Of a DNA stretch of 64,000 bases, positions 27,839 through 29,818 are shown one piece after another. The translations under genes were made by a program, and so were the position numbers. The notes under the pieces were generated by a model. That model was not told the DNA's origin, searched no databases, and saw only the letters and a list, made by a program, of their open reading frames with translations. Location: positions 434,001 to 498,000 of the forward strand of contig NZ_CVUA01000001.1 of assembly GCF_001282785.1 (NCBI RefSeq), written 5' to 3'. Every line of letters begins with the position of its first letter. The stretch's first letter is position 1. Source of the stretch: Halolamina sediminis (GTDB lineage: Archaea > Halobacteriota > Halobacteria > Halobacteriales > Haloferacaceae).

Positions 27839-28330
27839 ATGACGTTCCAGAGCTCTCACGACGGCGGGTCGCCCTCCAGACGAGCGTTTCTCGCGGCGAC
27901 CGGAACGGCGGTCCTGACGGCGACGGCCGGCTGTTCGGCGATGGCGGAGTTCGTCGGGAACCAACTACTCGAACAGGTCAACGTGTTCAACGAGACCGAC
28001 CGGCGCGTCGAAGGCTCGATCGTCGTCACCGATCCCGCCGGCGAGACGGCGCTCGATACAACTTTCGACCTCGCTTCCTCGGAGTCGGAGGACGGCAACT
28101 CGACCGCGACGTACGACGACGTGTGGGGGGAGGCAGGAGCGTACGAGGTAACTCTCGAACTGACAGATACCGAGATAGCGGGGACGTCCAGCGCGAGCCA
28201 GACGGTGGCCATCGACGATCCCGAGGAGCAGATGCTCGCCGCCGCGCTCGGCTCATCGGAGACCGACGAACCGATCGCGTTCCGCGTCGGTACGAGCCTC
28301 TCCGAGTTCGCAGGTGGGAACTCCAGTTAG
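27839..28330 (+). CDS. Tat-exported lipoprotein, function unknown
   Basis: This 163-residue protein carries SRRAFLAATGTAVLTATAGC: a twin-arginine motif and a lipobox cysteine near residue 32. The mature part contains a small beta-domain with the pattern NVFNETDRRVEGSIVV...LDTTFDL, resembling conserved haloarchaeal lipoproteins of unknown role. The ATG at 27839 follows a TTTATTCC AT-rich box 33-40 bases upstream. The longer in-frame upstream extension is antisense to the neighbouring lipoprotein gene and was not used. Confidence 0.82.
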   Translation: MTFQSSHDGGSPSRRAFLAATGTAVLTATAGCSAMAEFVGNQLLEQVNVFNETDRRVEGSIVVTDPAGETALDTTFDLASSESEDGNSTATYDDVWGEAGAYEVTLELTDTEIAGTSSASQTVAIDDPEEQMLAAALGSSETDEPIAFRVGTSLSEFAGGNSS

Positions 28331-28399
28331 TCGGAAAACGTCGGCTTCCGGATCTGAACTCCGTGAGACGTGCTCGCTTCGCTGTGCGGACTCAGAATA

Positions 28400-28473
28400 T
28401 GCCGCCTCCCCGATTTGAACGGGGGACAGCTCGATCTTCAGTCGAGTGCTCTCCCAATCTGAGCTAAGGCGGC
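28400..28473 (-). tRNA. tRNA-Phe (GAA)
   Basis: The minus strand folds as a standard 74-nt tRNA: acceptor GCCGCCT/AGGCGGC with discriminator A, D-arm GCTCAG...GAGC, anticodon stem CTCGA/TCGAG with loop CTGAAGA (anticodon GAA), five-base variable loop and T-arm CCCCG-TTCAAAT-CGGGG. No intron is seen and CCA is not encoded. Confidence 0.97.
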
Positions 28474-29520: not shown

Positions 29521-29745
29521 GGGCGCGGGCGGGTTTGGAACCACGGCCGCTCCCGTTCGCTCGCTGGTTTAAACCCCCTCGCTGTCACTACTTCGTGCTC
29601 ACTTCGTTCGCACAGAAGGAGTGGGCTCGGGCGGATTTGGAACCACGAGGACTTCGCTCCGCTCGTCCTCTGGGTTCAAATCCTTCGACGCCATTCAGAC
29701 GCCGCAGGCTCGTCGCTTCGCTCCTCGCAGTTGCGGCGTCGGAAG
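29521..29745. repeat. two extra copies of the tRNA-Val 3' end folded in hairpins
   Basis: The 3' part of tRNA-Val (29745-29769 on the plus strand) recurs at 29621-29646, with one inserted base in the T loop, and at 29521-29544, more diverged. Each extra copy is followed by an inverted partner: GGATTTGGAACC pairs with GGGTTCAAATCC (to about 29692), enclosing GAGGAC/GTCCTC, and GGGTTTGGAACC pairs with GGTTTAAACCC (about 29566-29576). The result is two imperfect long hairpins downstream of the tRNA. They may be remnants of repeated integration at the tRNA. Confidence 0.75.
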
Positions 29746-29818
29746 TGGGCTCGGGCGGATTTGAACCACCGGCCTCTTCCTTGTAAGGGAAGCGTCATAA
29801 CCACTAGACCACGAGCCC
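29746..29818 (-). tRNA. tRNA-Val (TAC)
   Basis: The minus strand gives a 73-nt tRNA: acceptor GGGCTCG/CGAGCCC with discriminator A, D-arm GTCT...TGAC, anticodon stem CTTCC/GGAAG with loop CTTACAA (anticodon TAC, valine), and T-arm GGTGG-TTCAAAT-CCGCC. No intron; CCA not encoded. Two partial copies of its 3' end lie downstream. Confidence 0.97.

Follow-up and report, generated by a model that had tools for sequence, protein, structure and literature searches.

The tRNA-Val(tac) locus

The window analyzed here, a stretch of 64,000 nucleotides from the genome of Halolamina sediminis, contains a tRNA-Val(tac) gene on its minus strand, which is followed downstream by two repeat units (Table 1). 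When read in the sense of the tRNA, both units are composed of the same parts in the same order: a spacer hairpin (D), an inverted copy of the T arm (R''), a second hairpin of 23-28 nt (V), and a direct repeat (R') of the tRNA stretch between the T loop and the 3' end, i.e. the discriminator. Unit 2 retains this order and is more diverged than unit 1. Neither the direct nor the inverted match was ever reached in shuffled downstream DNA (0/100 each), and therefore the copies and their arms are not a product of chance.

A preliminary description of this DNA had regarded the repeated copies as tRNA-Val 3' ends, which is borne out here. It had also pointed out that the inverted partners are unusual and that neither an integrase nor cargo lies between the copies; we agree on both points, as the units of ~80-140 nt contain no such gene. 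Two of its details, however, need to be amended. The inverted partners were said to follow the copies, which is true on the plus strand, but they are located upstream of the copies in the sense of the tRNA. The inserted T-loop base that was ascribed to one copy is real, but the same extra C is carried by both R'1 and R'2.

The 245 nt downstream of the tRNA fold with a z value of -4.9, better than any shuffle. Taken singly, the first hairpin gives z = -4.1 and the second, a weak one, z = -1.5. Only the two tRNAs in the window reached the gathering score of an Rfam family, and none of the units did.

Table 1. Positions of the tRNA-associated features in the window, listed in the sense of the tRNA.
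Feature	Position	Strand	Description	Basis
tRNA-Val(tac)	29746..29818	-	Anchor of the array; its 3' end (T loop to discriminator) is the repeated sequence	ARAGORN; Rfam RF00005, 70.4 bits
D1	29684..29745	-	Spacer of unit 1 with hairpin GACGCCGCA...TGCGGCGTC; genus family Db; same D in G148 and G073	
R''1	29673..29683	-	Inverted T-arm copy GGATTTGAACC	
V1	29645..29672	-	Hairpin CAGAGGACGAGCGGAGCGAAGTCCTCGT; near relative at tRNA-Asp of the same genome and at tRNA-Val of G148	
R'1	29622..29644	-	GGTTCCAAATCCGCCCGAGCCCA, direct copy of the tRNA 3' end with one additional C in the T loop	
D2	29577..29621	-	Spacer of unit 2 with GTGCGAACGAAGTGAGCAC hairpin; genus family Da	
R''2	29566..29576	-	Inverted T-arm copy GGGTTTAAACC	
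V2	29543..29565	-	Hairpin AGCGAGCGAACGGGAGCGGCCGT, weak fold; same type at tRNA-Leu(taa) of the same genome	
R'2	29521..29542	-	GGTTCCAAACCCGCCCGCGCCC, distal, diverged copy of the tRNA 3' end with the same additional C	
Remains behind tRNA-Phe(gaa) (28400-28473, -)	28310..28399	-	Decayed single unit: V-like hairpin CCGCACAGCGAAGCGAGCACGTCTCACGG and GAGTTCAGATCCGG	

Other tRNA genes of the genome

The DNA downstream of 42 tRNA genes was compared with the 3' end of each respective tRNA, and a score of at least 18, which was not attained in any shuffle, was taken as a full-length copy. Such a copy is present behind 15 of the 42 tRNAs, so that the pattern does recur behind other tRNA genes, as the preliminary description proposed to check; the other 27 have no full copy. 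For each of the 15, its own downstream region matches better than any other, or nearly so, and 13 of them also have a significant inverted T arm (p ≤ 0.02 versus shuffles). Units stand, for example, behind Thr(cgt), which has two, and behind Ser(gga), Glu(ctc), Asp, Trp, His, and three Leu tRNAs. Some other tRNAs are followed only by traces, e.g. the tRNA-Phe in the window (Table 1); an intact tRNA-Phe 3' copy is found ~112-129 nt downstream in five congeners, at the place where the copy of H. sediminis has decayed.

Away from tRNAs, a single V-type hairpin was found in this genome (L014), and its flanks are a different, locally matching inverted pair, GCGGGAAC/GTTCCCGC. All other strong matches to full-length V hairpins lie behind tRNAs, and the weak matches were discarded as a common GA-rich hairpin motif or an apparent coding coincidence. 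Another repeated long inverted repeat, GGCTGAAAGGGGCAGTTCGCTCG...CGAGCGAACTGGGGCTTTC, surrounds GA-rich hairpins at two loci (L319 and L321; G000:C1:1997711 and 2666399). At a further locus (L086; G000:C1:2368500-2374400), a second, diverged tRNA-Met unit is located 4.7 kb downstream of tRNA-Met, and the DNA between the two tRNA-Met units contains a TnpB-like gene (PF07282, PF01385) and a PAS-type sensor gene.

Distribution in haloarchaea and beyond

Of 145 haloarchaeal genomes, 70 contain a strict palindrome, GGATTYGAACC N15-45 GGTTCRAATCC, and they represent 33 of 58 genera; the same pattern reversed, used as the control, occurs in 0 of the 145. On inspection, 29 of 30 loci were seen to follow a tRNA encoded on the same strand at a distance of 18-276 nt, in some cases through mis-called introns. 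The haloarchaeal arrays hold one to five copies of the last ~22 bases of many tRNA genes, and the hairpin strand follows the sense of the tRNA in the units inspected. The strict perfect palindrome is absent from the three Halolamina genomes searched.

A scan of the genomes of all prokaryote species yielded at least 119 stretches, among those listed mostly from named Halobacteria. Among the matches listed, 92 of 120 palindromes follow an ARAGORN-predicted tRNA at a distance of at most 300 nt; several of the remaining listed ones follow contig ends or tRNAs that ARAGORN missed. The same layout of tRNA end, inverted arm and hairpin is seen in a Woesearchaeote (L150, 6210-6460) and in a Rhodospirillaceae metagenome-assembled genome (L201, 150-340), implying that it is not strictly confined to haloarchaea.

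The additional T-loop base of the tRNA-Val copies recurs in the genus (GGTTCCAAATCC, GGTTCACAATCC, GGTTCAGAATCC and GGTTAAAAATCC; L041, L048, L261, L262, L266, L340 and L342), where 7 of 28 R' copies have it, with the acceptor part mostly exact. It is rare elsewhere, in a set that was chosen for perfect arms. In some R' copies (L096, L097 and L090), a second hairpin type (GGAAGAGC..GCTCTTCCGAGCCCTCGTTC..GAACGAGGACG) is located within the acceptor part.

In the open literature searched, we found no earlier description of such tRNA-end/hairpin arrays. Provisionally, therefore, this seems to be an undescribed repeat system, situated behind many tRNA genes throughout one class of archaea.

Gain, loss and exchange of units

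The orthologous tRNA-Val locus has 0, 1, 1, 1, 1 and 2 units in six congeners, the empty site being L263, and 2 units in H. sediminis. Two D families occur at these loci, and their order is reversed between G073 and H. sediminis. The V between R'' and R' varies, in contrast to the D, R'' and R' around it, which are retained. At tRNA-Asp, two congeners lack a unit (L356 and L358), four genomes including H. sediminis have one unit with differing V types, and one genome has a foreign element directly at the tRNA.

An exact empty site is found at tRNA-Thr, where the empty allele (L341) and the occupied allele (L340) match on both sides. The insertion, which represents one site only, is ~107 nt long and consists of D-R''-V and a 24-nt second tRNA end. 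The preliminary description had held that copies retained by relatives at a conserved distance and with strict sequence conservation would be functional parts of the tRNA locus. The congeners depart from this picture, since some have no unit at the same tRNA and both the number and the sequence of the units vary.

Identical V hairpins of 27, 39 and 36 nt are shared behind Asp/Val, Leu/Val and Pro/Ser tRNAs, respectively, in the same or sister genomes. The R'' base opposite position 57 of the tRNA covaries with it: T is found 144 times versus 18 for C where the tRNA has A, and C 38 times versus 3 for T where it has G, an outcome that is not forced by the search pattern. The arrays also have a polarity. 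Among those with two or more copies, the first copy is closer to the tRNA sequence than the last in 29 cases, the opposite holds in 7, and 15 are ties (the sign test of 29 versus 7, our own calculation in which relatedness is ignored, gives ~3e-4).

Proposed mechanism

Small non-autonomous hairpin elements that insert beside the tRNA are the reading favored by the combination of the 107-nt gain, the fresh tRNA end, the array polarity and the V transfer. We tentatively regard the units as tRNA-anchored arrays of such mobile DNA hairpins, an interpretation that in our judgment stands about an even chance of being right. Each gain would add D-R''-V and a new tRNA 3' end of 22-24 nt, such that the tRNA stays intact and the old end is displaced downstream as R'. 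Later units would enter beside the tRNA, so that distal copies would be older and more decayed. Units may be lost by recombination between the direct R' copies, and the V hairpin moves between the arrays of different tRNAs. R'' presumably tracks the adjoining R' through synthesis that is primed at the folded V and copies R' into the other arm. The locally matching inverted flanks of L014, a single case, fit this fold-back prediction. Incidentally, the R' copies would be usable as secondary attB by tRNA-targeting integrases.

The occurrence of the units, their specificity for tRNAs, the exact empty site, gain and loss, V exchange, the polarity and one element situated at R' are observations; we infer that gain takes place by active insertion rather than duplication, that an enzyme carries it out, and that R'' originates by fold-back. 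Five tyrosine recombinases are encoded in the H. sediminis genome, none of them at the tRNA-Val locus, and Y1 transposases are found at two loci, one with a stop and the other a fragment. Neither an autonomous parent nor a mobilizing enzyme was identified among the recombinases and transposases of this genome and the elements compared. Two candidate parents were discarded: L238 has an integrase upstream of an ordinary core and then a unit, and no tRNA copy could be tied to the R' of L210, neither of which proves a parent.

The main rival is tandem duplication with template switching only, without any transposition-like step. While passing the tRNA end, replication would stall at a hairpin, jump back to the T loop and leave R''-V at the junction, after which recombination and gene conversion would expand, contract and homogenize the arrays. 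Some findings count against mobile hairpins and also speak for duplication: D is sometimes duplicated together with R' (at tRNA-Asp of H. sediminis and in L105/L116), and the empty Asp locus L356 has a D-like trailer without a unit, which fits a tandem duplication with V at the junction. That only a single V-type hairpin was found off tRNAs in this genome also counts against mobile hairpins. In addition, the direct R' repeats allow precise loss, quasi-palindrome correction accounts for the covariation of R'' and R', and the polarity may equally stem from gene conversion favoring the near copy. However, identical V hairpins stand behind different tRNAs in different species with their arms fitted to the local tRNA, so that V would still have to be transferred between loci. 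Furthermore, the junction always starts at the same T-loop base, and the D of the unit is missing from the empty Thr allele. We judge duplication alone to be rather unlikely.

Relation to integrated elements

Repeated tRNA ends had been taken in the preliminary description as integration sites, and part of this view stands. In G149 (L302), the array behind tRNA-Leu(tag) contains an integrated element whose PF00589 integrase has 366 aa; the element is located after R' of unit 1 and before D of unit 2, and both of its ends have a common 18-nt core, TCCGGTCCCGCGCACTAC. Judging from the sequence, the likeliest history is that the element integrated into an R' copy of the array, not into the tRNA, so that R' would have served as its attachment site; alternatively, a unit may have been added at the tRNA after the element. 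A comparable arrangement, in which the far end has decayed, is seen in Haloarcula argentinensis (L303). The elements of L123 and L238 border directly on a tRNA 3' end, with the unit after them.

The R''-V hairpin is absent from the ends of these three integrase-bearing elements (L302, L123 and L238), implying that elements of this kind do not give rise to the units as their remains. Since the units also have no integrase and form modular arrays with exchangeable hairpins, the plain attL/attR scar is the part of the earlier view that we reject.

A related proposal sees in the units minimal att sites, or what deletions have left of tRNA-integrating elements. Tyrosine integrases with a crossover in the T loop would move them in trans, and R''-V would be their arm sites. 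The copies do run from the T loop to the tRNA end, a unit separates tRNA-Leu from an integrase gene in L231, L205 and L159 (a second core was looked for in L159 and none was found), and an inverted repeat of a tRNA 3' part adjoins the integrase gene in bifidobacterial prophages. We nevertheless judge the proposal improbable: besides the element ends without R''-V, the L302 element lies within the array, between units, most arrays have no accompanying integrase, and the bifidobacterial repeat differs from V in its short loop and in having the anticodon stem as its center of symmetry.

Also improbable in our view is a tRNA-anchored cassette system, in which a recombinase would act on the folded R''-V-R' and insert or exchange units as in integron arrays, and the arrays would be spare attachment sites drawing viruses and plasmids off the tRNA. 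In integron attC sites, inverted boxes flank a variable hairpin that carries an extrahelical base, and the newest cassette lies next to the anchor. The inverted R''/R' boxes on either side of V, with an extra base in some R' copies, and the array behind a fixed anchor with its presumably newest member beside it are reminiscent of this. The units differ in that there is no IntI-type integrase at the anchor and no coding cargo, and the R box is a tRNA T loop.

DNA or RNA

Since the hairpin strand is in the sense of the tRNA in the inspected units, R'' is complementary to the T arm and the fold is strong, the units could be a functional RNA of the tRNA transcript, i.e. terminators, 3'-processing signals or T-arm antisense. 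A sense RNA selected to pair, however, would tolerate G-U over A-C mismatches, and no such excess is observed: the G-T to A-C ratios are 84:77 in the R stem, 6:22 in V and 11:13 in D, in a test that assumes neutral symmetry and counts related sequences many times. The R stem does covary, yet without a G-U preference. Moreover, units are missing at the same tRNA in sister species, 27 of the 42 tRNAs of H. sediminis have no full copy, and V is rapidly replaced. An RNA function is thus rejected on the mismatch test, and we hold it to be very unlikely. The hairpin tips have a GA-rich pattern, C-GA-GC-GNA-GC-GA-G, and tips of this type are especially stable in single-stranded DNA.

Comparison with known systems

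As with the attL/attR duplications of integrative elements, of the T-loop as well as the SNJ2 type, the target class is the same, the tRNA 3' end is restored with the old end shifted downstream, and R' can serve as attB; the units differ by their inverted T-arm copy, the hairpin V and the multi-unit arrays without integrase or cargo. REP and REPIN are short hairpins mobilized in trans, as we propose for the units; REP sequences, however, are dispersed in intergenic DNA, unlike the units, which stand behind tRNAs and have arms that match them. The 3' ends of tRNAs are the target of some casposons, and a direct repeat of ~22-24 nt duplicated per insertion by a fixed anchor is reminiscent of CRISPR and casposons. 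The inserts here are related hairpins instead of unique sequences, and Cas1 insertion was discarded because Cas1 (PF01867) is absent from the H. sediminis genome, with positive controls. The haloarchaeal PATE and SMR, i.e. small mobile repeats, are likewise short, non-coding, palindromic and found in the same class of organisms, and they are, as proposed for the units, mobile without a transposase of their own (PMC3119063). In contrast to these, the units are tRNA-anchored, include a copy of the host tRNA end and have arms that vary with the tRNA; no link of the units to IS605 or to the inverted termini of SMR was found.

The arrays are a natural record of successive events at tRNA genes. The units would account for confusing tRNA fragments in haloarchaeal annotation, and they complicate the calling of integrated viruses from tRNA repeats. 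They also raise the questions of which enzyme moves a hairpin of 25-50 bases between tRNA arrays, and whether the spare ends shield the tRNA from integrating elements.

Related arrangements at tRNA genes

A simpler second class consists of 10-14-nt copies that start from or near the T-stem TCC, at Ala(cgc), Arg(cct), Arg(gcg) and Pro(tgg). These resemble the ordinary scars with short cores that have been reported for SNJ2-type integrases (PMC8371274); the SNJ2-type cores have 13-14 nt.

In Bifidobacterium prophages (L142, L143, L252-L256, L258 and L259), a tRNA 3' part, CCAGAGGTCCATGGTTCAAATCCATG, is repeated in near-perfect inverted form beside a tyrosine integrase gene of ~280 aa, which makes an unusually symmetric att site. 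Although this repeat matches the search pattern, we treat it as an analogy only, because its stem is the tRNA 3' part from the anticodon stem to the T arm, probably of tRNA-Met, around a short loop by the integrase gene.

In L196 and L220, tRNA-Leu 3' halves begin at the anticodon loop, with foreign sequence before them and units after them. They likely represent element ends, with the anticodon loop as the crossover site.
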